Positions 6,092-28,573 of a DNA stretch of 33,248 nucleotides are shown here, piece by piece. Numbering within the stretch: the first letter of the stretch is position 1; the number at the start of each line of letters is the position of its first letter. The DNA is from Flavobacteriia bacterium (GTDB lineage Bacteria; Bacteroidota; Bacteroidia; Flavobacteriales_D; Crocinitomicaceae), in contig JACOTM010000118.1 in the NCBI GenBank assembly GCA_016178305.1, positions 1 through 33,248 on the forward strand, given 5' to 3'. A program made the position numbers and the translations under genes. The notes beneath the pieces are model-generated. The model worked only from the letters and a program-made list of their open reading frames with translations, searched no databases and was not told the origin of the DNA.

Positions 6092-7963
6092 ATGAAAAAA
6101 ATATTTTTGCTGTGGATATTAACTTTTAATTTAGTTGTTTCCTTTTCTCAGGGTGATACTCCTTGTACAGCAACAACATTAACACCTGCAACGTCTTGTT
6201 CTTATTCCGCTGGAACGAATGTCGGTTCTACTTCAGGATTAGATGGTTTCGGAACTCCTTCGTGTGCATCTTATTCTTCATCACCAGATGTGTGGTATAA
6301 ATTTGTAGCTCCAAGTTCTGGAACAGTGACAATTACAACTACTTCTGGAACATTGACAGATTCTGGAATGTCTTTGTATTCAGCAACTAATTGTTCAACT
6401 GGTCCGAGTGAAATTACATGTGATGATGATAGTGGAGCTGGGACTATGTCTGAAATATCAGCAAGTGGATTGACATCTGGAAACACTTATTACATACGGA
6501 TTTGGGATTATAATGATGGGACAGGAACATTTAATATTTGTATTACAAAGCCGGCAGATCCACCTGCAAATGACGATCCTTGTAATGCGACTTCATTAAC
6601 AGTGAATACAAGTTGTTCCTATACTTCAGGGACAAATGTTTCCGCTACAGCAAGTTCAGGAGTTCCAGCTCCTGGTTGTGCATCTTATGTCAGTGGTGAT
6701 GTATGGTATAAAATTGTCGTGCCAGCTTCAGGAAGTGTAAAAGTGAATACGAATACAGGTGGGGTGACAGACAGTGGGATGGCTATTTATTCTGGTGCAT
6801 GTGGTTCATTGACGCTAATTAGTTGTGATGATGATTCTTCTCCAAATGGATCTATGTCTATGATTACATTAACAGGACAATCAGTTGGTGCAACATTGTA
6901 TGTGCGATTTTGGGCATATAACAATGCACAATCAGGAACGTTTAGTATATGTGCCACAAGTATTAATGCCTGTGGAAATGAGGCAGATAATGATTATTGT
7001 AGTAATCCCGCAACATTAACACAAGGAGGAGCTGGTTGGACAGCGTCAACATCCAGCATTTTTACATCTGATGTACCCGACAATTTAGGTTCTGTTTTTT
7101 GTGGATCGATAGAAAATAATTCTTGGTATAAATTTACGGCGTCTTCAACAACTGAAACATTCAATTTCACATCTGTTTATAATTGTACGGGAGCTTCAGG
7201 AATTCAGGCAGAAGTATTTTCATTAACAGCAAGTGGTGACGGATGTTGTTCTTCTTTTGCTTCAAAATCGAATTGTTGGAATCCAGGAACTCCTACATCA
7301 GGAACTGTGACAGCAACAGGGTTAACCATAGGGAATCAGTATTATTTGATGGTTGATGGATATGGAGGAGATGCCTGTAGTTTTGATGTGTCAGGATGGT
7401 CAGCATCGGGAATATTGCCAGTGAAACTATTGTATTTTAAAGGTGTTTCTGAAAATAATACCAACTTGTTAAGTTGGGCTACAGGAGTAGAAATCAACAA
7501 TGATTACTTTACTGTTTTAAGATCTTATGACGGGGTTAATTTCGAAGAAATAGCACATATTAAAGGTTCAGGAAATACGGTCGTTACAAAAGAATATTGG
7601 TACGAAGATATAGTGAGTAGAGCTGGAATTGTATATTATCGTCTTTCACAAACGGATTACAATGGACATAAAGAATTTACTAAAATAATATCCTTAAACG
7701 AAGAATTCACAATCGAAAGTAGAATTTTAATTTATCCGAATCCAGCTAAAGATTATTTCATTGTCGAAATAAAAGAGGATGAAAATTTGGGAGGAAGTTT
7801 GGAATTATTCAATCAATTAGGGAAATCAATCGATTCTAAAATATTAGAAGGCAAAGATAATAACATTATTTTCGATGTTCGAAATATTGCAAAAGGGATG
7901 TATTTATTGAAATATATAAATAGCAATCAAGAGATTTATTATTCTGAAATAGCTGTGAATTAA
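6092..7963 (+). CDS. T9SS-exported protein with three PPC-like domains
   Basis: Secreted protein of 623 residues. An N-terminal signal peptide (about residues 1-19, ending VVSFSQ) is followed by three repeats of about 130 residues (roughly 22-152, 158-288 and 292-440). They share a layout seen in bacterial pre-peptidase C-terminal (PPC)-like domains: VWYK(F/I)V, a conserved DSGM(S/A)(L/I)Y, a CDDD box, and Y(I/V)R(I/F)W. All are rich in cysteine. The third repeat differs, with a CCSSF insertion. From about residue 547 the sequence IYPNPAKDYFIVEI starts a type A T9SS C-terminal sorting domain ending in YYSEIAVN. I infer export through the Sec and T9SS systems to the cell surface or medium. No catalytic domain is visible, so adhesion or carbohydrate binding is only a guess. 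The stop codon overlaps the next start by one base (TAATG). Confidence 0.85.
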   Translation: MKKIFLLWILTFNLVVSFSQGDTPCTATTLTPATSCSYSAGTNVGSTSGLDGFGTPSCASYSSSPDVWYKFVAPSSGTVTITTTSGTLTDSGMSLYSATNCSTGPSEITCDDDSGAGTMSEISASGLTSGNTYYIRIWDYNDGTGTFNICITKPADPPANDDPCNATSLTVNTSCSYTSGTNVSATASSGVPAPGCASYVSGDVWYKIVVPASGSVKVNTNTGGVTDSGMAIYSGACGSLTLISCDDDSSPNGSMSMITLTGQSVGATLYVRFWAYNNAQSGTFSICATSINACGNEADNDYCSNPATLTQGGAGWTASTSSIFTSDVPDNLGSVFCGSIENNSWYKFTASSTTETFNFTSVYNCTGASGIQAEVFSLTASGDGCCSSFASKSNCWNPGTPTSGTVTATGLTIGNQYYLMVDGYGGDACSFDVSGWSASGILPVKLLYFKGVSENNTNLLSWATGVEINNDYFTVLRSYDGVNFEEIAHIKGSGNTVVTKEYWYEDIVSRAGIVYYRLSQTDYNGHKEFTKIISLNEEFTIESRILIYPNPAKDYFIVEIKEDENLGGSLELFNQLGKSIDSKILEGKDNNIIFDVRNIAKGMYLLKYINSNQEIYYSEIAVN

Positions 7964-8370: not shown

Positions 8371-9132
8371 ATGAAAATTGAATCCATATTTATTATTGGA
8401 GCGGGAAATGTAGGAGTGCATTTAGCAAATGCATTTAAGGATAAAATTAATATTAAAGGGATTTACAGTAAAAATGGAATAAATGCTAAGGATGTTGCGA
8501 ATAAGTTAAATATCCCTTATTATGAATCGATTTTACAGCTTCCTACATGTGATTTAGTACTTATCTGTTCCAGCGATGATTCGATTGAAGAGTTAATAAA
8601 TCAAATACCCAACTTTTTTTCAATAGCATATACGTCAGGAAGTGTATCATTGGATTCATTGCCGAAAAAACCAAATCTAGGGGTGTTTTATCCATTGCAG
8701 ACATTTTCAAAAAACAAGGAAATAAAATTAGAAAAAGTTCCTTTTTTTATCGAAGCTAATAATGAAAATTTGGCACAAAATCTTTTTGATTTAGCTTGGC
8801 TGTTGAGTAATGAAGTAAATTTTGCAGATTCTTTTCAACGTCAAAAATTACATATTGCGGCAGTATTTATTAATAATTTTACAAATCATTTGGCGTATTT
8901 AGCAAAAGAGTTCTTAAATAAAAATGATTTGGATTGGAAATTTATGTTACCTCTTTTAAATGAGACAATTCAAAAAGTAAATGAGGTCAATCCATACGAT
9001 GCTCAAACAGGTCCTGCCAGACGAAATGACCAAAAAATAATAGATAAACATTTGGAATTATTAGGTGAAAATTACAAAGAAATTTATACCTCAATTACAA
9101 AAAGTATACAAAAAACATATTTGAAAAAATGA
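8371..9132 (+). CDS. Rossmann-fold, DUF2520-type oxidoreductase-like protein
   Basis: A cytoplasmic protein of 253 residues. The N-terminus carries the dinucleotide-binding loop IIGAGNVGVHLANAF; the first half is a Rossmann domain of the F420-dependent NADP oxidoreductase/ketopantoate-reductase-like type. The C-terminal half is helical and has the DUF2520 hallmarks: GVFYPLQTFSK, HIAAVFINNFTNHL and, near the end, NPYDAQTGPARRND. Members of this family often lie beside kdsC-like genes in Bacteroidota, as here. The substrate is unknown. An in-frame TTG at 8365 would add two residues; the ATG at 8371 places the beta strand at the normal distance. The gene overlaps kdsC by four bases (ATGA), indicating coupled translation. 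Confidence 0.85.
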   Translation: MKIESIFIIGAGNVGVHLANAFKDKINIKGIYSKNGINAKDVANKLNIPYYESILQLPTCDLVLICSSDDSIEELINQIPNFFSIAYTSGSVSLDSLPKKPNLGVFYPLQTFSKNKEIKLEKVPFFIEANNENLAQNLFDLAWLLSNEVNFADSFQRQKLHIAAVFINNFTNHLAYLAKEFLNKNDLDWKFMLPLLNETIQKVNEVNPYDAQTGPARRNDQKIIDKHLELLGENYKEIYTSITKSIQKTYLKK

Positions 9133-9647
9133 TTAGTTACAAAGAAAGATTAGCCAAAGTAAAGACTTTTATATTTGATGTAGATGGAGTTTTGACTGAT
9201 AGTTCCTTACTTTTATTTAAAGGTGAAATTTTAAGAACATTGAATTCAAAAGATGGCTATGCAATTCAATATGCGATTAAAATGGGGTATCGGATTGTAA
9301 TTATTACTGGAGGTAATTCTTTGGATGTTAAAGATGTATTGTTAAGTTTAGGAGTGAATGAAGTTTGTTTAAGTTCATTTAATAAGCTAAGTGTGTATAA
9401 TCGACTTAAAACTAAATATAACATGGTGGACGAGGAGGTATTGTATATGGGGGATGATCTTCCTGATTATGAAGTTATGCAAAATGTTGGAGTTGCAAGT
9501 TGTCCTCAAGATGCTTGTATGGAAATTAAACAAATATCACATTATCAATCTCCCTTTAATGGTGGTCAACATTGTGTAAGAGATGTTATTGAACAAACAC
9601 TTCGAGTACAGCATAAATGGTTTAGTGAAAAGGCTTTTGAATGGTAA
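9129..9647 (+). CDS. kdsC: 3-deoxy-D-manno-octulosonate 8-phosphate phosphatase (KdsC)
   Basis: HAD-superfamily subclass IIIC phosphatase that removes phosphate from Kdo-8-phosphate in the synthesis of Kdo for the lipopolysaccharide core. The 172 residues have the cap-less KdsC layout: motif I FDVDGVLTD with nucleophile D17 and acid/base D19, motif II around T60 (VIITGGNS), and motif IV GDDLPDYEVM with metal-binding D109 and D110. The typical N-F/S-P-F-N-G-G-x-H-x-V-R-D-V segment (SPFNGGQHCVRDV) near the C-terminus supports KdsC over other IIIC phosphatases. The start overlaps the preceding DUF2520 gene by four bases. Only one base separates its stop from the stop of the convergent downstream gene. 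Confidence 0.9.
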   Translation: MISYKERLAKVKTFIFDVDGVLTDSSLLLFKGEILRTLNSKDGYAIQYAIKMGYRIVIITGGNSLDVKDVLLSLGVNEVCLSSFNKLSVYNRLKTKYNMVDEEVLYMGDDLPDYEVMQNVGVASCPQDACMEIKQISHYQSPFNGGQHCVRDVIEQTLRVQHKWFSEKAFEW

Positions 9648-9648
9648 A

Positions 9649-11112
9649 TTAATGCGTAATTGTTAATTTATAGATTCGTTCTGTACCATTGTTTAAAATT
9701 AATTTTAAAATATATTGACCTGAATCAAAGTTGTTTAATTGAATTTGATGGTCAAGTTTAAATTCTGAGAGGGCATTTCCTAAAAGATCCAGAATGAGAA
9801 GTTTACCTGAGATTTCTTCATCGTATTCAATCGTTAATATTGTAGATGTTGGATTTGGATAGTAATGGAAAAAAACAGTGTTTGTGTTAATTTCATTTAC
9901 TGAAACCAAATTTGTAACTGTTGGATTTTCAGAAGTATTAGGAAAAACTTCATCAGCACCTATCTTAATTGCGAATACATTGTTTCCGCCAAAACCAAAA
10001 TGAGTATTGTATCCAACCATTATAACTCCTCCATCAGATGTGCCAATGATTTGACCTCCAATATCATCTCCTGTATTAGAGACATTCACTCCATGATTAT
10101 CCCATAGTAATGGTTCAGTATATCTTGAGAACGTAAGATCTTTACCTTCAGGATAAGTCGTACCTTCGTTAATAATATTTGTAGCAATATATAGTGAGTT
10201 TGGATTTTGAAAAGTAGAAATCAATTCATGAGAATCATATCCTGGAAATGAGTTGTCAAAGATGTAACTGATGCCCCCGCTAAGATATATTTTCCCTAAA
10301 AATGCATCAACTAGACCTGTTAGCGTATCTGTTTTGTTTCCAATAATATTAATTCGGTTTGGAGTAATACAGAGATCATTTACAATATAGTGACCATGTT
10401 GACCATATTGTTTAATCCATTCAATAGTCCCATTTGTTTTTAACCGCATTAAAAATCCTTTATTGAGAGTTGAATCTGAGTTGAAAATTTGTCCTCCAAC
10501 ATAACAGATAGAATCATTTAATATTTTAATACTTGTTGCAAAATCTTCTCCTTCATTTTGAATTTGCTTTGTCCATAATGTATCTCCTTCTTTATCTGTT
10601 TTCACTAAATAAATATCATTGTCACCAAATGTATTTGAATTTGTTTGACCAACCATCAGAATACTAGTGTCAGCTAAAATAACAGCATCATTTACTTTTT
10701 CCCATCCACTTTCACCGTATGCTTTTTCCCAAAGTAAATTTCCATTTAAATCTGTTTTCACGAGAAAAAAGTCGTAACCTCCATGCCCTATTGAATTTGT
10801 ATAGCCACTCACATAATATGCATAGTTTTTAACTGCTAATACACGGCGTCCCCAATCAGATTCAGTACCGCCATAATTTTGAGACCATTTAAAATTTCCA
10901 AGACTGTCAATGTTCATTAAAAAAGCTTGTGAGGCATGGTCGTCACTAAAACTACTTGAAGATCCAGTAATTAGATAACTGCTATCTTCCAATTGAACAA
11001 TTCCTTGACCAAAATCATAGCCATTATTTGAGTATAATTTGTAGAACTGGATTTGCGTCCAACTTAATAATGGACTACAAACTATCAATATTAAAGTTAT
11101 TAAATTCTGCAT
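9649..11112 (-). CDS. T9SS cargo with propeller-like repeats and type A sorting domain
   Basis: Secreted protein of 487 residues with an N-terminal signal peptide (QNLITLILIVCSPLLSWTQ). The body consists of repeats of about 50 residues centred on W-x-K/Q-x-Y-G, then a strand such as YYVSGYT, then D-x-x-L-(V/I)-K-T-D-x-x-G. This is the delta-60/SBBP-like beta-propeller pattern of surface proteins in Bacteroidota. From residue 417 YYPNPTSTILTIEY starts a T9SS type A sorting domain ending IYKLTITH. It is the last gene of a three-gene minus-strand unit, and its start lies 13 bases inside the upstream barrel gene. The context suggests that this cargo works with, or is anchored near, the barrel and lipoprotein encoded upstream. 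Its ligand or partner cannot be read from sequence. Confidence 0.85.
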   Translation of the reverse strand: MQNLITLILIVCSPLLSWTQIQFYKLYSNNGYDFGQGIVQLEDSSYLITGSSSSFSDDHASQAFLMNIDSLGNFKWSQNYGGTESDWGRRVLAVKNYAYYVSGYTNSIGHGGYDFFLVKTDLNGNLLWEKAYGESGWEKVNDAVILADTSILMVGQTNSNTFGDNDIYLVKTDKEGDTLWTKQIQNEGEDFATSIKILNDSICYVGGQIFNSDSTLNKGFLMRLKTNGTIEWIKQYGQHGHYIVNDLCITPNRINIIGNKTDTLTGLVDAFLGKIYLSGGISYIFDNSFPGYDSHELISTFQNPNSLYIATNIINEGTTYPEGKDLTFSRYTEPLLWDNHGVNVSNTGDDIGGQIIGTSDGGVIMVGYNTHFGFGGNNVFAIKIGADEVFPNTSENPTVTNLVSVNEINTNTVFFHYYPNPTSTILTIEYDEEISGKLLILDLLGNALSEFKLDHQIQLNNFDSGQYILKLILNNGTERIYKLTITH

Positions 11113-12329
11113 TGTAATCTAAATAATAATGATTGACCATTTCCTCTTTTTGAAATGAAGCCTATACAGTTTTCTGAAGCAATACCTAAGGTTATTTTTC
11201 GAATTTTATAATTCATATATAATCCTGTTTTGAATTTTGAGAATCCACCATAACTTTCTTGAAATCCAACGGCAATAGATGAATTCAATTTGTATTGAAA
11301 TCCAATATATATTAATGGAATGTATGATATTGTAGGGTAAAGTCTGACACCGAAATACGATTGAATTTTATTTGGATAATATTCATCAATAATTTTACCG
11401 ACTTGAATCATACACGGTAAGAAAAAATTGGATTTATGTGTAGATGTTTTAATACCTAATTTAGAATATATAGAAGATGTATCGGTGAAAAGTGTTTGTT
11501 TACCTACAAATTGGTGAATTTGAAATCCATCATAGTGATATGTCGAATCAAAAATATAATAATTCATTCCTGTATTCATAGTCGCGAAACCTAAGTTTTT
11601 GATGTTGAATTGAATAATAGCAGTTTGAGTAGTTGACCAATCTATTTTAACTTTAAAATCAAAATCTGCTCCTATTCCATAGCCAGCATTGAATTTAGGG
11701 GATGTGTTATAACCGTAATAGCCAGTCATTCTGATGCTATCGTTGGAGCCTTCAGTATTTTGATATAAATATCCATTTAGAATTGTCCCGTTGATGGAAT
11801 TTTGGATGTTATAATAATTGAAATTGATACTTGATTTACTTTTTTTAAAAATAATTCCGAATCCAATTTTTTGAAATGTGCTTATTTTGAGGTTTATACC
11901 TGAAAAATTTGCTGTTTTACCTAGATAATTATCATTTCCATAAAATGTCAGTCCAAAGGCATCTTTTGAGTATGCCATTGAGCCTATTGAAGAATAACCT
12001 GTTTTTACAATTAAACCAATATTGTTTTGTTTAAAAAGATTCACTTTTAAATTTCTATATTCAATTTCTGAAGTGACATCATATCCAATTAAATTTTGTC
12101 CTCCATGTTTATCAAAAGATTTATTTTTAATTGTTTCAGTAATTTCACCACCATGTATCAATTTTGAAAGGAAGTCATTTCTTAGTGAAGTCGCACCATA
12201 TTCTCCATTTCCTTGAATTAAAATTTCTGAATAATCAAATGTGGTATCGTATTGTATCGGTAATATTAATTGAGCAAAAGAAGAACAACTAATGAGAATA
12301 AAAATATATGTGAGAATATTATGAGACAT
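11100..12329 (-). CDS. Predicted outer-membrane beta-barrel protein (DUF5723-like)
   Basis: A 409-residue protein with a signal peptide (SHNILTYIFILISCSSFAQ). The mature part is full of alternating amphipathic strands ending in aromatic residues, and its last segment (SLLFRLQCRI) reads as a terminal barrel strand. The N-terminal block GGQNLIGYDVTSEIEY and the general length resemble the DUF5723 family of outer-membrane proteins in Bacteroidota; PorP/SprF-like barrels are the alternative. The assignment rests on pattern, not on a motif. The start codon overlaps the stop of the upstream lipoprotein gene by one base, and the stop lies inside the downstream T9SS cargo gene, so the three are very probably one translationally coupled operon. 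Confidence 0.75.
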   Translation of the reverse strand: MSHNILTYIFILISCSSFAQLILPIQYDTTFDYSEILIQGNGEYGATSLRNDFLSKLIHGGEITETIKNKSFDKHGGQNLIGYDVTSEIEYRNLKVNLFKQNNIGLIVKTGYSSIGSMAYSKDAFGLTFYGNDNYLGKTANFSGINLKISTFQKIGFGIIFKKSKSSINFNYYNIQNSINGTILNGYLYQNTEGSNDSIRMTGYYGYNTSPKFNAGYGIGADFDFKVKIDWSTTQTAIIQFNIKNLGFATMNTGMNYYIFDSTYHYDGFQIHQFVGKQTLFTDTSSIYSKLGIKTSTHKSNFFLPCMIQVGKIIDEYYPNKIQSYFGVRLYPTISYIPLIYIGFQYKLNSSIAVGFQESYGGFSKFKTGLYMNYKIRKITLGIASENCIGFISKRGNGQSLLFRLQCRI

Positions 12330-13921
12330 TAAATTTTCGCTTTTAATTTGAACGCGGTTTTGATTTTTACTCCAATGAATGCTCCTTCAGGGATCATGAT
12401 CATTTCATTTTGATTTGTAGATGGATTAGGAGTATTTAATATGACTCGAATGACTAATTTTTGAACTTGATTTAATGAATGAATAATATTCTCATTTATA
12501 TCAAGCGTTATTTTTGATGCATTCACTAATAATCCTTGTGCGTTAATGCTGTTCCCATAAAGCGATGATGCAATCACATGATCGGTATTTAAGGTTGTAA
12601 TAAGTTGATTGTTTGCATCTAATAAATCAATTGCAAAATCAGCTTGCATTGGGAAAGCATTTTGAAAATCGAATATAAATTTCCCAGACTCTATATTAGA
12701 TTTATCTTCATTTTGTTTCAATGAAAAGTTAAATGTGTCTTGTGCTGATAGGCCATCCAATCCAATTGTTAAAGGTAAGTTTGCATCTATCGTAACCTTA
12801 ATATGGCTGTTAGGAAAAACTTCATTCCAGCCTCCGGAAACATTTCCCCATGGATTTAACTGTATAGCATAGCCAATGGTGTTTTTAGCACCAATATTTT
12901 CAAGGAAATTTTCTATGTTACTATTGGTAGAATTAAACTCAATTGTTTTTTGACTAGGTGTGAAATTTTCCCAAGTTCCCGTAGCTGGATCCAAATAAAA
13001 TGGTTGTCCAATTTGAGGGTGTGTTAAAGAAATTGAATTGAAATTGAAATTTTCATTTTTAATTTCATATAACGTTGCTTTTGCGGGTATTTTTAAACCG
13101 TTTGAAATATTGAATTTTAAGATCGTAGCGGGTAAATTAATAGATCCAGCTGTTAATTTGCTTAAAGCATCTAGTAATACGGTAGTTGTATCACTAATTA
13201 TTTGATTTCCTAAATAGCCTCTTGCATAATCAACTTTTAAGTCTTTAATAGTCGCTTCTAAACGAGTAATGTCGTTGTTTGTGATAACAACTGAAGGACC
13301 TTGAGGGTCTGTTTTAACAGATACAAAAGATTGTAATTTGTTAAATGAACCTCCATTTGCTCCCGTTAAATCCATGTAGTAACCAGATATATCAATCGTT
13401 TCTTCAATTATTCCAGGATTTGATTCGTTACCAGCAGGTGCAGCATAGACATGTTGGAAATCAATTCCATTTTTGGAAACACCAGGTAATGTGACAGTGA
13501 AAAAAGTTTTGGTGTTAATGACATTTTTTAACTTTAAAGAAATTTTCCCTTCTTTTAACCGTATTTTTTTTAGTTGAACATCTTTTAGGTCAATGTCATG
13601 TTCATCAACTTGCGATGGGTTTACAAAATTAGTTCCTGGAGGAATTGTTAAACTCGAGACTGATAAGGTATAACTTTCATAAATGGTTGTGTCTGGAATT
13701 TTTATTAAGTCAATTAAATTTACATCTAACAACGTGCGGTGTAAATCTATTTCATAATACCCAGTAGAATTAATTGCCATTGTTGAATCGTTGACAAAAC
13801 GATCGAGGGTAATTGTATCATTAATTACAGGGATAGTCCAATTTGAATCCCAAGTTGTTTTTTCTTTCCTACATGAAAAAAGAAATACGTTTAATAAAAG
13901 TAAATAAACAATATTTTTCAT
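12329..13921 (-). CDS. Large lipoprotein of unknown function
   Basis: A 530-residue protein with a lipoprotein signal ([17 protein letters not shown], lipidated Cys17, followed by RKEK). The rest is predicted all-beta: many short strands with Asn, Thr and Gly turns, and segments such as [22 protein letters not shown] and [17 protein letters not shown] typical of surface beta-sandwich lipoproteins. I do not recognise a named domain. It is the first gene of the lipoprotein-barrel-T9SS cargo unit, joined to the barrel gene by a one-base TAATG overlap. It starts 42 bases after the thiolase stop on the same strand, so read-through from the thiolase promoter is possible. An outer-membrane location is inferred from the company it keeps. 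Confidence 0.8.
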
Positions 13922-13963: not shown

Positions 13964-15172
13964 TTACGCTCTCTCAATTACAACCGCATATCCTTGGCCA
14001 ACACCAATGCACATTGTTACCAAAGCATATCTTTTGTTCGTTTTTTGTAATTCGATAGCTGCGGACAATAATATTCTTGCGCCAGACATTCCAAGAGGAT
14101 GGCCTAAAGCAATCGCACCTCCATTTGGATTAATTCGGGGATCATCATCTGCTAAACCTAATTTACGGGTACAAGCTAAAACTTGGGCAGCAAAAGCTTC
14201 GTTTAATTCTAAAATATCCATTTGATCCAACGTTAATCCCGCTCTTTTTAATGCTTTTTGAGATGCGTAAACAGGACCAATCCCCATGATTCTTGGTTCA
14301 ACACCTGCAACTGCACCAGAGACAATTCTAGCCAGAGGTTTTAAATTATGTTTTGCAACGGCTTCACCAGATGCTAACAATAAAGCTGCTGCTCCGTCAT
14401 TTAGTCCTGAAGCATTTCCTGCTGTAACCGAACCTTCTTTTTTGAAAGCAGGTCTTAACGAACCCAATGTTTCCATTGTTGTTTCGGGTCTTGAAAATTC
14501 ATCTTGGTCGAAAATGATTGGATCTTTTTTTCGTTGAGGAATGAACACCGGAACGATTTCTTCAGCGAATCTTCCAGAAGCAATTGCATTTGCTGCTTTT
14601 TGCTGTGACCAAACAGAAAATTTATCTTGAGATTCTCTGTCGATTCCGTACATTTCGACTAAATTTTCAGCGGTATTTCCCATGCCATCTACACCATATA
14701 ATTCTTCCATTTTAGGGTTGATAAATCGCCATCCAAATGAAGAATCAAACATCTGTGCATCTCTTCCAAAAGCAGTAGAAGTTTTTGAAATAACCCAAGG
14801 TCCTCTTGTCATATTTTCAATTCCTCCTGCAATGTAAATATCCCCAGCTCCATCTTTAATTGCACGAGAAGCATTAATTGTTGCCGCCATTCCAGAAGCA
14901 CACAATCTATTTACAGTTTCACCTCCCAATTGATAAGGTAAACCAGCCAATAAACTAGACATTCTAGCTACATTACGATTATCTTCCCCCGCTTGATTTG
15001 CACATCCCATAATTACATCTTCGATTAATAAGGGATCTAGTTCAGGATGTCGATCCATCAAACCTTTAATAGTAATAGCACCTAAATCATCTGGTCTTAC
15101 GGTAGATAATGTTCCACCAAAACTTCCAATGGCAGTTCTAACGCCATCAACAATATATACTTCTTTAGACAT
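13964..15172 (-). CDS. Acetyl-CoA C-acyltransferase (thiolase), PcaF/PaaJ-like
   Basis: Thiolase of 402 residues, a length typical of degradative and beta-ketoadipyl-CoA thiolases. The active site is complete: nucleophile Cys91 in NRLCASG, His358 in GHPLG and Cys388 in CIGVGQG. The stretches [29 protein letters not shown]-like MGNTAENL and [19 protein letters not shown] are closest to the beta-ketoadipyl-CoA thiolases PcaF/PaaJ as I remember them, suggesting 3-oxoadipyl-CoA or a general 3-ketoacyl-CoA as substrate. No other aromatic-degradation or beta-oxidation gene is in the window, so substrate is undecided. A promoter-like pair (TTG, 21 bases, TACCTTTA) lies just upstream on the minus strand. 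Confidence 0.9.
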
Positions 15173-15346: not shown

Positions 15347-16525
15347 ATGTTGAAAACTTCTATGTATAAAAGTGAAACAGACTTTGTATATTCGAAATCG
15401 CTAAAAATTAAAAACCGAAAACAAGTGAGATTAAAAAAAACGAGTATTTTATTAATGGTGTTATTGATTTCAATGGGGTTGAGAGCTCAAGTGGAAGATT
15501 TAACTCCTTCAGAAATCGCATATCGTGATTCCATTGCTAAATTAAATTCGCAAAATGATGCTATCGCAAAAAGTCAAGAAGCCTACAATAAAGGGATTCA
15601 TCTTTTTGGAGAAAAAAATTATAAAGGAGCGATAGAACAATTTTCAACTTCTGTTAAATTGGACCCAAAATTTACGGGGGCTTATTATAATAAGGGGGTT
15701 GCGGAAAACGAGGCAGAATTATATTCCGAAGCCTCGAAAACATTGAATGAACTAATTCAAATTGACCCGAATTATTCGAAAGCATATTTTCAAAGAGGTA
15801 GAGCTTATCAAGGCTTAAGTGATTATTTGAATGCAGAAAAAGATTATGAAAAATCAATTCAAATTGATCCTAAAAGTGCGAAAGCATATTATAATTATGG
15901 AACATTACGTTTTTTACAAGCTGATTATAATGGAGCAATCAAACATTTTACAAAAGCAATTGAACTAGATCCAAATTACGCCTTTGCTTATAACGACAGA
16001 GGAAGTTGTTACCGAATGCTTGGGAATTATCCAAAGGCAATTACTGAATATGAAGAAGCTGTTAAAAAGAATCCCAAATTAGCTTTTGTTTTAAATAATA
16101 TTGGCACTACAAAAAAGAAAATGAAAGACTATATTGGTGCTATGGCAGCTTTTAATCGAGCAATTTCTGTGGATGCTAATTTTTATATGGCTTATAACAA
16201 TAGAGGTGTAGCTTTGATGGAGCAAGGGAAATTAGATGATGCGAAAAAAGATTTTGAAAAAGCCCTAGCAATCAATCCTAAATATGCCCCAGCAGCATCT
16301 AATTTAAGCGCCATTTATTTTAAACAAAAGGATTATAAAAAAGCATTGGAATATGGAGATAAAGCTGTTGCAGCAGACACGAAATATGCAAGTGCTTATG
16401 TGAATAGAGGGATGGCTCGAGAAATGAATAGAGACTTAAATGGAGCGTGTGAGGATTGGCACAAGGCAAAAGAATTGGGGGCTGAACTTGGAAAAACATA
16501 TTATTCCGGAAATTGTAACAATTAA
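15347..16525 (+). CDS. Exported TPR-repeat protein
   Basis: A 392-residue protein with about eight canonical TPR units from residue ~80 to the end (A-Y-x-N-x-G-x-x, then Y-x-x-A-I-x-x-F/Y-x-x-A-I-x-L-D-P-x). It closes with GACEDWHKAKELGAELG, a tail common in Bacteroidota TPR proteins. The N-terminus is unusual: about 30 mainly polar residues precede a signal-like core (TSILLMVLLISMGLRAQ), so either the n-region is very long or translation starts later, at an internal ATG such as 15365. An AGGAG at 15331-15335, rare in this window, supports the ATG at 15347. The OmpA-family gene follows after 11 bases, so the two probably form an operon, and a scaffold role for envelope or T9SS assembly is inferred. 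Confidence 0.85.
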   Translation: MLKTSMYKSETDFVYSKSLKIKNRKQVRLKKTSILLMVLLISMGLRAQVEDLTPSEIAYRDSIAKLNSQNDAIAKSQEAYNKGIHLFGEKNYKGAIEQFSTSVKLDPKFTGAYYNKGVAENEAELYSEASKTLNELIQIDPNYSKAYFQRGRAYQGLSDYLNAEKDYEKSIQIDPKSAKAYYNYGTLRFLQADYNGAIKHFTKAIELDPNYAFAYNDRGSCYRMLGNYPKAITEYEEAVKKNPKLAFVLNNIGTTKKKMKDYIGAMAAFNRAISVDANFYMAYNNRGVALMEQGKLDDAKKDFEKALAINPKYAPAASNLSAIYFKQKDYKKALEYGDKAVAADTKYASAYVNRGMAREMNRDLNGACEDWHKAKELGAELGKTYYSGNCNN

Positions 16526-16536
16526 AACTAGAAGAG

Positions 16537-18606
16537 ATGCTTAAAAAATATATTACATTCATTTTATTGGCTGCAACTTCTAGTTTGTTTGCACAAAATA
16601 TTGAGTTTAAATCGTCAAATTTTAAAGATAATAAAGAAGGATTGAAAAAAGCGCAAGATGCAATTGATGCAGGGGATGTTTTTTTTAAACAAGCAAATGA
16701 AGCTTTTTTTATGGTTCAAAATACAGGACTAAATTATAAAAAAGCGTTAAAACAATATGAAGTTGCTCAAAAATTTAATCCTAACAATGGACAATTAAAT
16801 TTTAAAATTGGTGTTTGTTATTCCAATTCAACAGATCCTTTCAAAGGAATTGATTACATTAAAAAAGCAAAATTACTAGACCCAACTTGTGATCCTTTTT
16901 TGGATTATTATGTAGGGTTCTCTTTACAATTGGAACAGAAATTTGATGAAGCTTTAGCTTCTTATCAAACATTTGAAACAAATTATAAAAAAGCAGATAA
17001 TTTTGCAAAATTTGTTACTCAAAGAAAAAATGAATGTAAAAATGCAAAATCGAATATTTCAAATAGTATTCGTGCATGGGTTGATAATTTACCAGAATTA
17101 AATTCGGAATTTGATGATTTTGCACCTTCTATTTCGACTGATGGAGCGGAAATAGTTTTTACATCTAATAGACCGAATGGACATACTCCAAATGAAGTGG
17201 GTGGTTTTGATTGTGATATTTATTCATCGTCATTGGGAGATGTAAAATGGAGTGCGCCTAAAGATTTACCAGGTAGTATAAATTCTGGAGTTGATGATGT
17301 TTCTGATAATTTGAATTATAGTGGGACAGCTATGTTGTTGCATAGAGATGTAAATGGCCAGACAGATATTTTAGAATCAAAATTAAAAGGAGCAAGTTGG
17401 ACTGAACCGACACCTTTGAGTTTTTTAATTTCTTCTCCGAAATCAAATGAACGATTTGCTTCATATAGCAATGATGGATGGAGTATTTATTTTGCAAGAG
17501 ATAACGATTCCAAAGAAACAGGTTTTGAAATCATGAATTCTGCGATGCAAAGTAAAATTCAAAAAGATTTCATGACAGCATCTATGGTTAGTATCGTAAA
17601 TTCAAAATTTGATGATGGTCCAATTTATATTCATATTGATGGTGAAACGATGTATATAGCTTCAAAAGGACATGAATCAATGGGAGGATATGATATTTTT
17701 ATGTCAAAAAGAGTTCAAGGATCTTGGACAAAACCAGTGAATATGGGATACCCAATCAATACGCCTTATGATGATTACTTTTTTGCGTCAACTGCGAATG
17801 GTAAATTTGCTTATATAGCTTCAAACAGAGCAGGAGGAAAAGGTGGCTATGATATTTATAAAGTAACATTTTGGGGAGCAGAGAAAAAACCAGTGGTTGA
17901 TGTAGAAGATTATTTATTAGCTTCTGTTGCGATGCCCGTGAAAGATCATCAAATTGAAGCTGCTGTAGATGTTAATAAAAAGTCTTTCACTGTTTTTAAA
18001 GGAATGACAATTGATGCCATTTCTAGAAAGCCTGTTGAAGCAGAAATTGAAATTACAGATAACGTTACAGGTAAAATAATTGAAACTTTTACAACGAATA
18101 GTGCGACAGGAAAGTTTATCATTACTTTGATTTCAGGTAAAAATTACGGTATTGCCGTGAAAGCGAAAGGATATTTGTTTCATTCAGAAAACTTTGATAT
18201 TCCTGAAGGTAGTGGAGATAATTTGGTTAATACGGTGATTGAATTGAAAAACATAGCTGTAGGTAGTAAAATCGCCCTTCGAAACATATTCTTTGATTTA
18301 GGGAAAGCAACTTTGAGAGCAGAATCAAATGCTGAATTAGATCGTTTAGTGAAATTAATGAAGGATGTACCGACTTTAAAAATAGAAATATCTGGTCATA
18401 CGGATAATACGGGGTCAGCAAATATTAATGAGACTTTATCGCAACAAAGAGCAGAAGCGGTTGTAACTTACTTGGCAAGTAAAGGTGTTGCTGCGAATAG
18501 AATGGTAGCAAAAGGATATGGTTCAAGTAAACCAATTGCTCCGAATACAACAGATGAAGGAAAACAACAAAATAGAAGAACTGAATTTGAAATTAAAGGA
18601 AATTAA
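16537..18606 (+). CDS. PorE-like OmpA-family protein (TPR, PD40 propeller, regulatory-like domain, OmpA_C)
   Basis: A 689-residue envelope protein. Order of parts: signal peptide (residues 1-19, ending SSLFAQ), TPR region about 30-175, PD40/WD40-like propeller about 185-450 with repeated FTSNRP, YIASKG and YIASNRAGGKGGYDI-type blades, a carboxypeptidase-regulatory-like beta domain about 490-565, and a C-terminal OmpA domain from about 575. The peptidoglycan-binding pair is present: Asp623 in GHTDNTG and Arg638 in QQRAEAV, 15 residues apart as in other OmpA domains. This order matches PorE of Porphyromonas gingivalis, which links the T9SS to peptidoglycan. Unlike PorE, which is a lipoprotein, no lipobox cysteine is seen, so a type I signal is predicted. 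A strong terminator follows. PorE equivalence is inference; many Bacteroidota carry several paralogues. Confidence 0.88.
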   Translation: MLKKYITFILLAATSSLFAQNIEFKSSNFKDNKEGLKKAQDAIDAGDVFFKQANEAFFMVQNTGLNYKKALKQYEVAQKFNPNNGQLNFKIGVCYSNSTDPFKGIDYIKKAKLLDPTCDPFLDYYVGFSLQLEQKFDEALASYQTFETNYKKADNFAKFVTQRKNECKNAKSNISNSIRAWVDNLPELNSEFDDFAPSISTDGAEIVFTSNRPNGHTPNEVGGFDCDIYSSSLGDVKWSAPKDLPGSINSGVDDVSDNLNYSGTAMLLHRDVNGQTDILESKLKGASWTEPTPLSFLISSPKSNERFASYSNDGWSIYFARDNDSKETGFEIMNSAMQSKIQKDFMTASMVSIVNSKFDDGPIYIHIDGETMYIASKGHESMGGYDIFMSKRVQGSWTKPVNMGYPINTPYDDYFFASTANGKFAYIASNRAGGKGGYDIYKVTFWGAEKKPVVDVEDYLLASVAMPVKDHQIEAAVDVNKKSFTVFKGMTIDAISRKPVEAEIEITDNVTGKIIETFTTNSATGKFIITLISGKNYGIAVKAKGYLFHSENFDIPEGSGDNLVNTVIELKNIAVGSKIALRNIFFDLGKATLRAESNAELDRLVKLMKDVPTLKIEISGHTDNTGSANINETLSQQRAEAVVTYLASKGVAANRMVAKGYGSSKPIAPNTTDEGKQQNRRTEFEIKGN

Positions 18607-24046: not shown

Positions 24047-25426
24047 TTAGAAAAATTTCGGAAAAATAAAGTTGCTCATATCTACCTCGTAAATATCACG
24101 ACTTGACTTTTGACCTATGATTTCAATACCTGACATTACAGCTAATTTTAATTCAGGATAATATTGGAAATGTGTATCATCATTTACGGTATTAACAATT
24201 AATCCTAAATTGATTGGTTTTGACCATGTATCGCCTCCTAAATTCTCGGAGACAAAAATATCTAATCCACCCATTCCTTTATGTCCATTTGAGCTGAAGA
24301 ATAAATATTTTCCATCAGGAGTAATGAAAGGAGTTGTTTCATCTCCATTTGTATTAATACTATCTGATAATGCTACTGCTGTTCCCCAATTTTTCCCTTC
24401 TTTATGTACGACATAAATCTCTTTTAATTTTTTATCATGATTTCTATCTGACATAAAGTACATTGTATTTCCATCTGCGGTTAATGTTGCACCAGATTCT
24501 CCGAATGGGGAATTGATAGATTTATTTTTAATAATTTTTGGAGAAGACCATTTTCCCTTATCTGTAAATTCAATTTCACAAATTTCACCGCTTTTTGTTT
24601 TATGTTTTGATTCAATCATGGAAGTATTTAAAGTCATAAAAGCATGTAAGCCATTTACTGTAATATATGATAGAGCATCAAAGCCATCTGAATTAATTCG
24701 ATCAATTTCATTTGTCACACTATCCCATCTTTGCTCTGTTTCATTCCATTCTGATCGGTAAATATCTTCAAAAAATTCTTGATCATCTTGATTTACTTTT
24801 CCTCCCGTTGTATTGTTTCTTCGTGAAGTGAAATACATGATTTTACCATTATGAGACAATATTGGGGCATATTCGTTAAACCCCGTGTTGATATCGCCAA
24901 CAAGCTTTACACGTAAAGATTTTTTGCCTAGAGCGATTTGTTCTTTTGTGAAATTACATTGCTCAATTTTTTCATTAATTTGAAGATCCTTGATTCGTGT
25001 TTTAGAAAGTAAGCCTAAAGATTTATTATAATAAAAAATGGCAGAGTCTAATTGCCCCAATTGATGAAAACTTCTCCCTATTAATTCATACACATCTTTA
25101 TCGACATTTTCAGCATCGGTTTTTACAGCTTCTTTTGCGTACTTAAGTGCAAAACCAAAATTGTATAAACCGTAATGACAATTTGAAATCCAATAAGTAG
25201 GTTTCCAATTATAAGGATCTTTAGCAGCAGCTTCACGAAATAAATTTAAAGCGTCTTTAATTTTTCCTTCATCAAATAAAAGACGACCCTCATCGACAAG
25301 CAACATTGAGCTTGCCTGATCAATAATTTTAGAGGTTGAATCAGGAGGAGTTAAGTGGTTGTTTATTGCTTTGACATTCAGAGAAATAGCAGTTATTACG
25401 AATGTAATAAGTAATCTAAGATTCAT
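24047..25426 (-). CDS. Exported TPR-PD40 propeller protein without OmpA domain
   Basis: A 459-residue exported protein. Signal peptide about residues 1-20 (LLITFVITAISLNVKA). TPR-type helices occupy about 40-170 (EGRLLFDEGKIKDALNLF, YELIGRSFHQLGQLDSAIFY). PD40 propeller blades run from about 185 to the end (SHNGKIMYFTSRR, TADGNTMYFMSDR, TPDGKYLFFSSNGHKGMGG, LDIFVSE). It ends at SNFIFPKFF with no OmpA, regulatory-like or T9SS sorting domain, so it looks like the front half of the PorE-like protein in this window. A soluble periplasmic or surface propeller that binds a partner is the natural reading. It is transcribed divergently from purB across a 229-base gap; a weak TATCTTTA (25466-25459, minus strand) could be its -7 element. 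Confidence 0.82.
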   Translation of the reverse strand: MNLRLLITFVITAISLNVKAINNHLTPPDSTSKIIDQASSMLLVDEGRLLFDEGKIKDALNLFREAAAKDPYNWKPTYWISNCHYGLYNFGFALKYAKEAVKTDAENVDKDVYELIGRSFHQLGQLDSAIFYYNKSLGLLSKTRIKDLQINEKIEQCNFTKEQIALGKKSLRVKLVGDINTGFNEYAPILSHNGKIMYFTSRRNNTTGGKVNQDDQEFFEDIYRSEWNETEQRWDSVTNEIDRINSDGFDALSYITVNGLHAFMTLNTSMIESKHKTKSGEICEIEFTDKGKWSSPKIIKNKSINSPFGESGATLTADGNTMYFMSDRNHDKKLKEIYVVHKEGKNWGTAVALSDSINTNGDETTPFITPDGKYLFFSSNGHKGMGGLDIFVSENLGGDTWSKPINLGLIVNTVNDDTHFQYYPELKLAVMSGIEIIGQKSSRDIYEVDMSNFIFPKFF

Positions 25427-25655: not shown

Positions 25656-27011
25656 ATGATTTTAAACGCACTTACTGCAATTTCACCAGTTGACGGTCGA
25701 TACCATTCAAAAACACAAGAATTACAACCTTTTTTCTCTGAATTTGGGTTGTTTAAATATAGAGTAATTGTTGAAGTAGAGTATTTTATTGCTCTGGTAG
25801 ATTCTGGGGTTGGACCTTTGAAAGATTTTCCAAAAGAGAAATATACTGATTTACGTGCCCTTTGTTCTAATTTTTCGGAAGAAGATGCCTTGTGGATAAA
25901 AGATACTGAGAAAGTTACAAATCATGATGTGAAAGCGGTTGAATATTTTTTAAAAGAAAAAATGACCTCTTTAGGTTTGGAAAAGTATCTTGAATTTATT
26001 CATTTTGGTTTAACTTCTCAAGATATTAATAATACAGCGATTCCATTATCATTGAAAGAAGCAATTGATTATGTTTATTTGCCTTTTGCAGAAAAAATTA
26101 TGACGAAATTGACGACTATTCAATCTGATTGGAAGGATATACCAATGTTAGCTCGAACGCATGGTCAACCTGCATCTCCTACACGATTAGGAAAAGAAAT
26201 TCAAGTTTTTTCTGAAAGGTTAAAGAAACAAATAGATGTATTAAAACAAATTCCATTTTCAGCTAAATTTGGTGGAGCAACAGGAAATTTTAACGCTCAT
26301 TTTGTAGCATTTCCAAAACATGATTGGGTTTCTTTTGCAAATGATTTTGTAAATAATCGTCTAGGTTTAGATCGAAGTCAAACAACAACTCAAATTGATC
26401 ACTACGATAATATTGCCGCTCTTTTTGATGCTATGAAACGTATCAACACGATTATTTTAGATTTGGACCGTGATATGTGGACATATATTTCAATGGAATA
26501 TTTCAAACAAAAATTGAAAGAAGGGGAAGTTGGCTCTTCTGCAATGCCTCATAAAGTAAATCCGATTGATTTTGAAAATTCTGAAGGTAATATTGGTTTG
26601 GCAAATGCGATTTTGGAACATTTAGCTTCTAAATTACCTGTTTCTAGATTGCAAAGAGATTTAACTGATTCTACTGTTTTACGTTCAATAGGAATGCCTT
26701 TTGCTCATACATTAATTGCTTTTAAATCTACATTACAAGGTTTAGATAAATTATTATTAAATGAAAATGCAATAACTGATGAGTTGGAAAATAATTGGGC
26801 GGTTGTTGCTGAAGCTATTCAAACAATTTTAAGAAGAGAAGGTTTTCCAAAACCTTACGAAGCATTGAAAGGATTAACGCGTAAAAATGAGGCTGTTACA
26901 CAATTAACAGTACATGCTTTTGTTGATGCGTTGAATATATCAGATGATTTAAAAAATGAATTAAAGGCAATTTCTCCTCGTAATTATACAGGTATTCAAT
27001 TGGTGAAGTAA
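25656..27011 (+). CDS. purB: Adenylosuccinate lyase
   Basis: Fumarase/aspartase-superfamily enzyme that acts twice in purine synthesis, on SAICAR and on adenylosuccinate, releasing fumarate each time. The 451-residue length and the N-terminus (LTAISPVDGRYHSKTQEL) match the E. coli-type PurB. Catalytic elements are seen: His169 in ARTHGQPASPT and the signature loop GSSAMPHKVNP with Ser295. Other family hallmarks are HFGLTSQDINNTAIPL and LQRDLTDSTVLRSIG. The stop overlaps the next start by one base (TAATG), so purB is translationally coupled to an exported protein with no evident purine role. Confidence 0.97.
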   Translation: MILNALTAISPVDGRYHSKTQELQPFFSEFGLFKYRVIVEVEYFIALVDSGVGPLKDFPKEKYTDLRALCSNFSEEDALWIKDTEKVTNHDVKAVEYFLKEKMTSLGLEKYLEFIHFGLTSQDINNTAIPLSLKEAIDYVYLPFAEKIMTKLTTIQSDWKDIPMLARTHGQPASPTRLGKEIQVFSERLKKQIDVLKQIPFSAKFGGATGNFNAHFVAFPKHDWVSFANDFVNNRLGLDRSQTTTQIDHYDNIAALFDAMKRINTIILDLDRDMWTYISMEYFKQKLKEGEVGSSAMPHKVNPIDFENSEGNIGLANAILEHLASKLPVSRLQRDLTDSTVLRSIGMPFAHTLIAFKSTLQGLDKLLLNENAITDELENNWAVVAEAIQTILRREGFPKPYEALKGLTRKNEAVTQLTVHAFVDALNISDDLKNELKAISPRNYTGIQLVK

Positions 27012-28573
27012 TGAGAACTAAGCTCTTTATATTAATGTTTTTTGTATTTATTTATAGGAATAATTATGCACAAGATACAACTTTATGGGGGCAATTAATT
27101 AAAACAAAAGGTCAAGTGAATATGTTGATGCCTTTGAATGGTTCTACATATTATACTGTTCGTTATCAAGGTGGAGGATTGTTAGGTTCTAACTATTTTA
27201 GTTATCATTCAAATTTTAAATTAAAAGAAACAGGGAAGATAAAATCGGCTGTAAACAATAGTACAGCAATTGTAGAATACGTGTCATTGATTAATGGCTT
27301 TCCGATCGCTTTCTTAACAGATAAAGTTGAAAATAAAAGACTTTTATACGCTCAAAAGTATGATTCTACCTGTAAAGAAATTGATGCTCCAATAAAATTA
27401 TCGGAATATACAATTTCCAAAAATGGTTGGAAAAGTAGAGGTTTTTACAATTTTTTATTTTCAAAAAACAAAGAATATTTTTGTATAGAATACGATATAC
27501 CTGCTACGAAAGATGAAAATGAGAGATTTGGATACCGAATTTTCTCAAAGAATTTCGAATTAATATCCTCAGGGGAATATGAATTACCTTTTTTGAAAAA
27601 TGAAGCTACAATTTCAACGAGATATATTTCAGATACGGGAGATTATTTTATTTCTGTAAAAGTATTTGAACCAGAAGAAAAAAAGAAAATATTCAAAGAT
27701 AATAGCTTGCTTTCGAAAGTGATTTTGATGCAAGTGACTCCAAGTGGACTGATTGAATATGAATTAAAATTTGAAGATAAAAAAATTACAGAAATGACGT
27801 TTTCTTCAGATAACAATCGAATTATTACTTTTTCTGGTTTATATGGTGATAAAAATACTTCAGGAATTAAAGGCGTTTTTTATTTTGTAATGGATTTTGA
27901 TAAAAAGAAAATACTAAATGAAGGTTTCAAAGAATTTGATAAAGATTTCATAACTGAGGATTGGACTGAACGTCAAAAAGATCGATCCGAAAAAAATATT
28001 GAGAAAGGAAAAAGTAGCCCTCAATTATTTAATTACGAAGTAAAAGAAATGTCAACCTTATCAGATGGTAGTTTAATAGGTTTGTTAGAGCAATATTATA
28101 TTAATACAGTCACTTATACTGATCCGAGAGGTTATATTAAAACGACAAGTAGCTACAATTATAATGATTTAATTATTTATAAAATCAACCATTTAGGTGA
28201 ATTTGTTTGGGTAAAGAAAATTCCAAAAACACAAATTACAGTAGATGATTATGGTTATTTTAGTTCCATCGCAAGTTGTGTAAATGATGAAAAAATAGTA
28301 GTGTTTTTCAATGATAATTCTAAAAATTATGATTCAAATGGTGTGTGGAATCAAAAAGATTTTTCTGCGAATTTTACACGAAAAACGAATGTTGTTGCGA
28401 AAGTAGTAATTGATGTGCAAACTGGCTCTGTTAATAGAACTACTTTCGTAGATGCAAAAGAAACAAATTCAATTTCAATACCAAAGTTATTTAAAGTTGA
28501 TTATATTAAAAATGAGATGTTGATGGTTCTACGTTATGGTAAAAAAGAAAAATACGGGTTGTATAAATTCTAA
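27011..28573 (+). CDS. Exported protein of unknown function coupled to purB
   Basis: A 520-residue protein with an N-terminal signal peptide (RTKLFILMFFVFIYRNNYAQ). I recognise no domain. The body appears mostly beta, with repeated short strands and turns such as YTVRYQGGG, YFISVKVFEPE, MTFSSDNNRIITFSGLYG and LIIYKINHLGEFVWVKKI. The D-N-x-R-I-(I/F)-T-F and H-L-G-x-F-V-W units resemble propeller blades of exported Bacteroidota proteins. It has no T9SS sorting domain or lipobox. Its ATG overlaps the purB stop by one base. Its own stop overlaps the stop of the convergent MscS gene by four bases, leaving no room for a separate terminator. Confidence 0.8.
   Translation: MRTKLFILMFFVFIYRNNYAQDTTLWGQLIKTKGQVNMLMPLNGSTYYTVRYQGGGLLGSNYFSYHSNFKLKETGKIKSAVNNSTAIVEYVSLINGFPIAFLTDKVENKRLLYAQKYDSTCKEIDAPIKLSEYTISKNGWKSRGFYNFLFSKNKEYFCIEYDIPATKDENERFGYRIFSKNFELISSGEYELPFLKNEATISTRYISDTGDYFISVKVFEPEEKKKIFKDNSLLSKVILMQVTPSGLIEYELKFEDKKITEMTFSSDNNRIITFSGLYGDKNTSGIKGVFYFVMDFDKKKILNEGFKEFDKDFITEDWTERQKDRSEKNIEKGKSSPQLFNYEVKEMSTLSDGSLIGLLEQYYINTVTYTDPRGYIKTTSSYNYNDLIIYKINHLGEFVWVKKIPKTQITVDDYGYFSSIASCVNDEKIVVFFNDNSKNYDSNGVWNQKDFSANFTRKTNVVAKVVIDVQTGSVNRTTFVDAKETNSISIPKLFKVDYIKNEMLMVLRYGKKEKYGLYKF

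Follow-up and report, generated by a model that had tools for sequence, protein, structure and literature searches.

A conserved envelope gene module of Bacteroidia that pairs a lipoprotein with a DUF5723-type barrel, often beside a type IX secretion propeller

Introduction

In the type IX secretion system (T9SS), barrels of the PorP/SprF type are reported to shuttle or anchor cognate cargo carrying type B sorting tails, as in SprF-SprB and in PorE-PorP-PG1035, where PorE completes the complex (excerpts of PMC9143113 and PMC12618676). According to the abstract of a 2025 paper, PorV serves type A tails, whereas type B cargo has dedicated shuttles. A different pairing is seen in structures of the β-barrel assembly machinery (BAM), where the N-terminus of BamH is held by BamG (excerpts of PMC12611786 and PMC12578637). 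Here we analyze three adjacent genes, LIPO, BARREL and CARGO, which encode a predicted outer-membrane lipoprotein, a predicted FadL-like outer-membrane barrel and a T9SS cargo protein, and which can be compared with each of these systems. They lie in a 33,248-nucleotide stretch of Crocinitomicaceae DNA (the window), which makes up contig C122 in an assembly of 3.6 Mb and 124 contigs. No description of such a module was found in the literature searched, with subscription papers and preprints lying outside that search, and the searched literature likewise yielded no paper naming DUF5723. The tandem spreading genes of F. collinsii were considered and rejected, because the paper on them deals with other proteins.

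Results

The three genes are kept together in the Crocinitomicaceae

LIPO (12329..13921), BARREL (11100..12329) and CARGO (9649..11112) are adjacent open reading frames (ORFs) on the minus strand. LIPO and BARREL overlap by 1 nt, in the sequence TAATG, and BARREL and CARGO by 13 nt (11100..11112); an overlap of 13 nt recurs in 52 of the 69 adjacent family pairs. A preliminary description of this DNA had proposed a 530-residue all-beta lipoprotein, a DUF5723-like barrel and a propeller-type cargo with a T9SS sorting domain, encoded with overlaps of 1 and 13 bases. The ORF coordinates bear out the layout; the lipoprotein is borne out by its lipobox and an almost all-beta model, and the cargo by a CylK-related profile match and by sorting-tail models that score over cut-off.

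The presence of the genes was surveyed in 150 genomes from 24 genera of the family. BARREL and LIPO were each found in 137 of the 150 genomes. CARGO-like proteins occur in all 150, with orthologue-level matches in 138 by hand tally. When the tables were counted by hand, with a CARGO orthologue set at E ≤ 1e-40 and the weak LIPO match of genome G127 (1e-7) counted as absent, 134 genomes had the whole trio, 10 had none of it and 6 had a part. Eight of the ten trio-less genomes belong to a single genus, g2, of which 13 genomes were sampled. In five of the six partial genomes, the coordinates of the last gene place it at the end of a contig or close to it; the partial state of G097 (67% complete, CARGO only) is not explained in this way.

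Gene order was assessed at the best 80 of 161 relatives, the named ones including Crocinitomicaceae assemblies, Taishania and Fluviicola. In 64 of the 80 the sequence continues for 3.2 kb or more downstream of LIPO, with ORFs called mechanically and labelled by profile (adjacency thresholds of 100, 35 and 50 bits). BARREL directly follows LIPO in 63 of these 64 loci and CARGO follows BARREL in 61. The exceptions are L145 and L160, where CARGO is not next to BARREL, and L189, where one gene intervenes; at L145, from Taishania pollutisoli, LIPO stands apart. In genus g13 (G013, G033, G048) the trio is split, yet all three genes are kept, with BARREL-CARGO on another contig than LIPO in G033. Two tandem CARGO genes are found at L171, and genome G008 has the order LIPO-CARGO-LIPO-BARREL-CARGO. 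Loci with short downstream sequence were set aside here and in the wider samples described below (16 of the 80 family, 1 of the 20 order and 3 of the 40 class loci); BARREL is still next in 14, 0 and 3 of them, and the contig ended first in the other three. Order and overlaps are kept in the family while the neighbours change. A thiolase gene 42 nt upstream of LIPO on the same strand (13964..15172), is present in 74 of the 80 family loci and was found in 0 of the 60 order and class loci, so that thiolase is not part of the module and the linkage is not general synteny. The preliminary description had suggested a gene-neighbourhood survey, and the three families do not occur independently in most genomes. 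These results support the three genes as an evolutionarily fixed unit in the family.

LIPO and BARREL form the core of the module outside the family

LIPO relatives are present in 241 of 249 order genomes and in 219 of 295 class genomes. We compared 20 order loci from 8 families with 40 class loci hand-picked from the listed LIPO matches, favouring strong matches away from contig ends and drawn from 36 other families, some represented twice. At the order loci, BARREL comes after LIPO in all 19 with room for it, and CARGO is directly next in 10 and follows after one gene in 7. At the class loci, BARREL adjoins LIPO in 39 of 40 (36 of the 37 with room and the 3 shorter ones), and at two loci (L272 and L301) CARGO is next to the pair in inverted orientation. 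Blind clustering of the ORFs at the 60 order and class loci recovered BARREL at 57 and CARGO at 41, followed by a RarA-like ATPase, named by eye, at 19, KdsA at 17 and a PorE-like OmpA gene at 15. The PorE-like OmpA gene, whose NCBIfam scores are below the curated cut-offs, is a neighbour at 35 of 80 family, 6 of 20 order and 10 of 40 class loci. Because LIPO-BARREL often stands without an adjacent CARGO outside the family, the pair is the core and CARGO is its frequent third member.

The best evidence for a functional pair comes from paralogues, in which the lipoprotein family is again paired with the DUF5723 superfamily. On contig C44 of the window's own genome (L308:220-4315), a divergent LIPO paralogue lies 16 nt upstream of a gene for a DUF5723-TSP3-OmpA protein, and this paralogue aligns with LIPO over 508 columns (hhalign probability 99.9, E 9e-38). 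LIPO paralogues likewise stand beside DUF5723-TSP3-OmpA proteins at L103 and L110, the DUF5723 part of the latter being 51% identical to that of L308, and beside a DUF5723 protein without OmpA at L105. A DUF5723 neighbour was therefore present at four of the six paralogue loci, six being the number examined and not the number in existence.

BARREL is related to DUF5723 at the superfamily level

The predicted model of BARREL (409 aa; pLDDT, the predicted local distance difference test, 86) has the fold of an outer-membrane barrel. Its best structural matches are the transporters FadL, TodX and CymD, FadL being matched with Z 16.9 over 273 residues at a root-mean-square deviation (rmsd) of 5.3. 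Chain F in the T9SS translocon structures 8gl6 and 6h3i, presumably PorV, is also similar to the model (Z 15.4), as are FadL-like chains in BAM entries from Bacteroidota, presumably BamG (Z 14.1-14.9). In Pfam, DUF5723 (PF18990) included, the window protein itself matches no family at E ≤ 1, and it is absent from the DUF5723 matches in its own genome. Six of 27 BARREL relatives do match PF18990 (best 1e-14), and an order-wide BARREL profile aligns with the DUF5723 domain of the C44 protein (hhalign 97.6%, E 4e-12, 179 columns). Profile comparison further placed a conserved segment common to DUF5723, SKDxFGLxFYGNxxYLGxTxxxSG, at 11898..11972. BARREL thus appears to be a remote DUF5723 relative, and the proposed label of a DUF5723-like barrel stands for the superfamily but not for the window protein taken alone. 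Neither the NCBIfam PorP/SprF model nor the Pfam FadL/Toluene_X transporter family (PF03349) was matched by the window protein at E ≤ 1 or by the 27 relatives at E ≤ 0.1. The PorV model NF033710 was matched neither by the window protein nor by the 27 relatives, and searches of the PDB with LIPO and BARREL profiles (A1, A2, A7, A8) found no BAM chain.

LIPO is a predicted all-beta lipoprotein with a conserved, basic N-terminus

The lipobox of LIPO (530 aa) reads LFSC and was assigned by pattern and by eye, with the lipid-bearing residue at Cys17 (codon 13871..13873, minus strand). The predicted model is almost all-beta (mean pLDDT 86). LIPO has a single weak Pfam match, below cut-off, and none in NCBIfam, and 28 of its relatives match 8 different Pfam families, each in one member, so that no common family emerges. 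The only solved structure standing out for the model is 4h3w, that of BDI_1231, a secreted protein of Parabacteroides distasonis whose function is not known (Z 14.5 over 288 residues, next best 7.5). The two differ, in that 4h3w has 313 residues, superposes at an rmsd of 8.2 and is matched only weakly by the LIPO profile (E only 0.006), and is not found with the wider profile A7. Beyond 4h3w the fold search returned generic sandwich matches only, and BamH was absent among the matches listed. In the literature searched, 4h3w appeared only in a survey of crystallography.

A conserved basic segment and W24 follow the lipobox. In the model and the alignment, the residues after the lipid cysteine are conserved. 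The first strand begins six residues further on, leaving little tether, and both features fit a tight docking of LIPO. The N-terminus usually reads C-K/R-K-E, and the window protein has one acidic residue among the six after the cysteine (RKEKTT). Surface lipoproteins of Bacteroidota have been called by at least two acidic residues within these six positions (excerpt of PMC12578637). Of the LIPO proteins with a picked lipobox, 9 of 77 in the family, 6 of 18 in the order and 11 of 32 in the class have two or more, counts that include some lipobox picks that are plainly too early. Separately, LIPO relatives of 684-790 aa occur in other families (L288-L294, L296, L297), with BARREL next and no CARGO following on that strand. 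For L289, the one examined, Pfam gave no clear match to the additional segment.

CARGO carries a conserved propeller and a type A sorting tail

CARGO (487 aa) has a signal peptide, read by eye, a beta-propeller and a type A C-terminal sorting domain at residues ~415-487 (9652..9870, minus strand). The tail matches TIGR04183 and PF18962 (Por_Secre_tail, residues 418-483) over their curated cut-offs, with 32.5 bits against 23 and 33.5 against 27. The propeller region is related to CylK and to SBBP repeats, the family profile matching a CylK chain at CARGO residues 61-290 (E 3e-34). Among 26 family sequences, mean pairwise identity is 42% over residues 21-200 and 24% over the tail. Since the propeller is the conserved part of CARGO, it is most likely the part that BARREL or LIPO would bind, if they bind CARGO.

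With respect to the T9SS as a whole, SprA_N is present in 284 of the 295 class genomes and hardly discriminates. LIPO occurs in 216 of the 284 class genomes with SprA and in 3 of the 11 without it (Fisher p 0.001), a difference confounded by phylogeny and completeness. The trio-less g2 genomes keep SprA, and the module was therefore rejected as a core part of the T9SS.

Other genes of the window

Downstream of CARGO lies a convergent gene for a KdsC-type phosphatase. Different genes for 3-deoxy-D-manno-octulosonic acid (Kdo) stand beside CARGO in different clades, a convergent KdsC gene or a preceding KdsA gene (window 9129-9647, L228, L230, L264, L265 and others). Near the operon, 6092-7963 encodes another T9SS cargo, which has both a GBD_T9SS_assoc domain and a sorting tail. 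The ranges 15347-18606 and 24047-25426 contain a gene for a TPR protein followed by one for a PorE/CHU_0125-like OmpA protein and, apart from these, a relative of the N-terminal part of the latter that has no OmpA domain. A 520-aa ORF at 27011-28573, without a Pfam match, overlaps an adenylosuccinate lyase gene by 1 base. Matches of window proteins to DUF371, ilvE and an EMC1 propeller were set down to chance, since all score below cut-off and relatives do not share those to DUF371 and ilvE.

Discussion

The linkage, co-occurrence and co-loss of the module are established by the genome surveys, as is its fold class by the models, and the pairing of LIPO with BARREL is well supported. Read as a whole, the locus would encode a fixed LIPO-BARREL outer-membrane pair that, in this clade, receives, retains or acts together with CARGO at the cell surface, a reading that we put forward tentatively and with slightly less than even confidence. 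LIPO would dock near the membrane on the FadL-like, DUF5723-type BARREL, and BARREL would bind the propeller of CARGO after ordinary T9SS export. Both the contact of LIPO with BARREL and the retention of CARGO are inferred. By analogy, the pair may work as PorP/SprF does with surface proteins or as BamG does with BamH, a likeness that in neither case extends to sequence.

Several observations weigh against this reading. Only 12 of the 37 class loci with room have CARGO directly after the pair in the same orientation, and in 6 it follows after one gene. At L283 (8116-10923), LIPO has no adjacent BARREL, the next protein being, by eye, LptF/LptG permease-like. The paralogues at L101 and L108 have no adjacent barrel either; the next gene is an AAA ATPase at L101, and L108 has no labelled neighbour. 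Mirror-tree partial correlations within the trio (0.47-0.63) are barely higher than those of ordinary neighbours (0.31-0.55), and one unrelated neighbour pair reaches 0.65. LIPO may face the periplasm, because its N-terminus is basic and in most cases does not have two acidic residues. Barrels of the FadL type also include transporters. When each tail was compared with those of other loci, 40 of 68 operonic tails and 30 of 54 other tails were closest to an operonic one; operonic tails form no separate group, and an operon-specific CARGO tail was rejected. The genes for PorV and PorU lie away from the operon, side by side on contig C25. Because the tail is type A, PorV and PorU stand together on C25 and the operonic tails are not separate, CARGO probably leaves by the ordinary PorV-dependent T9SS route. 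Of the interpretation first offered in the preliminary description, the fixed three-gene unit and the superfamily-level tie to DUF5723 hold, whereas its idea of a surface complex that holds the cargo is weakened by the basic N-terminus of LIPO, the ordinary type A tail and the frequent lack of an adjacent CARGO outside the family.

An alternative that we consider unlikely is that LIPO-BARREL is a general pair for outer-membrane assembly or integrity, laid out like BamG-BamH, with CARGO a clade-specific, co-transcribed addition. It would account for LIPO-BARREL being commoner than the trio and for the nearness of the BARREL fold to FadL-like chains in the BAM complexes of Bacteroidota (Z 14-15). 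For BamG2-BamH2, a putative operon and a predicted complex have been reported (excerpt of PMC12578637). However, neither protein has a sequence match to any PDB chain, BAM entries included, members of genus g2 live without LIPO-BARREL, and the acidic residues described in BamH-K are mostly missing from LIPO. With similarly low probability, BARREL would be a transporter of hydrophobic compounds like FadL, LIPO its periplasmic acceptor and CARGO a device for surface capture. The ranking of FadL, TodX and CymD as best structural matches fits such a role, and the basic N-terminus of LIPO allows a periplasmic position, but the PF03349-type family is not matched, and proteins of FadL fold in this phylum, such as PorV and BamG, act as partners of other proteins as well.

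Action on lipopolysaccharide, for example surface binding, seems quite improbable: a KdsC gene lies after CARGO at 29 of 63 family loci and, among loci that have CARGO, a KdsA gene stands directly before it at 6 of 17 in the order and 7 of 22 in the class, yet KdsA is present at only 10 of 40 class loci, Kdo genes are absent from most, and the proteins bear no sign of lipid binding. Least of all do we favour an ordinary operon kept by chance with meaningless overlaps, since LIPO-BARREL persists outside the family where thiolase is found at 0 of 60 loci, the trio is lost together and paralogous pairs exist, even though short overlaps are common in bacterial operons and the flanks are partly conserved in the family (thiolase at 74 of 80).

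The genomic evidence points to a conserved envelope module, undescribed so far, of a lipoprotein and a DUF5723-type barrel with a frequent T9SS propeller. We regard as doubtful the bolder proposal of a Bacteroidia-wide, undescribed envelope machine, in which recurring lipoprotein-DUF5723 pairs, some of them tied to peptidoglycan by OmpA, would in many lineages have their own T9SS-delivered propeller as a surface subunit, BARREL acting as a dedicated type A partner beside PorV. A single complex would then combine a lipoprotein, a barrel and a protein delivered through a different secretion route. The pairing matters in that the LIPO family, present in 219 of 295 class genomes, has no fitting Pfam or NCBIfam model, and LIPO and DUF5723 each gain a testable partner. 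Moreover, should BARREL hold the propeller, dedicated partners in the outer membrane would exist for type A cargo as well.

Among known families and systems, DUF5723 (PF18990), whose function is not known and which is often fused to OmpA, has the barrel segment in common with BARREL, is matched by BARREL relatives and likewise pairs with LIPO-family lipoproteins; the window BARREL differs in having neither a match to the model nor an OmpA domain. PorV, the general shuttle for type A cargo, has a fold similar to that predicted for BARREL, next to which a type A cargo is encoded, but BARREL has no PorV model match and the PorV of this genome is the one beside PorU. BamG-BamH offers the same combination of a FadL-like barrel and a lipoprotein partner, with conserved residues next to the lipid anchor; here neither profile matches PDB BAM chains, the LIPO N-terminus is basic, and BamH is not among the LIPO fold matches listed. 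PorP/SprF differs from BARREL in that BARREL has no match to the PorP/SprF model, the CARGO tail is type A and not type B, and the most constant partner of the module is a dedicated lipoprotein, LIPO. It resembles our locus in that an outer-membrane barrel is encoded with T9SS cargo and a PorE-like OmpA gene recurs in the neighbourhood of the module. By this analogy, PorP/SprF with its type B cargo would be the nearest working model for LIPO, BARREL and CARGO.

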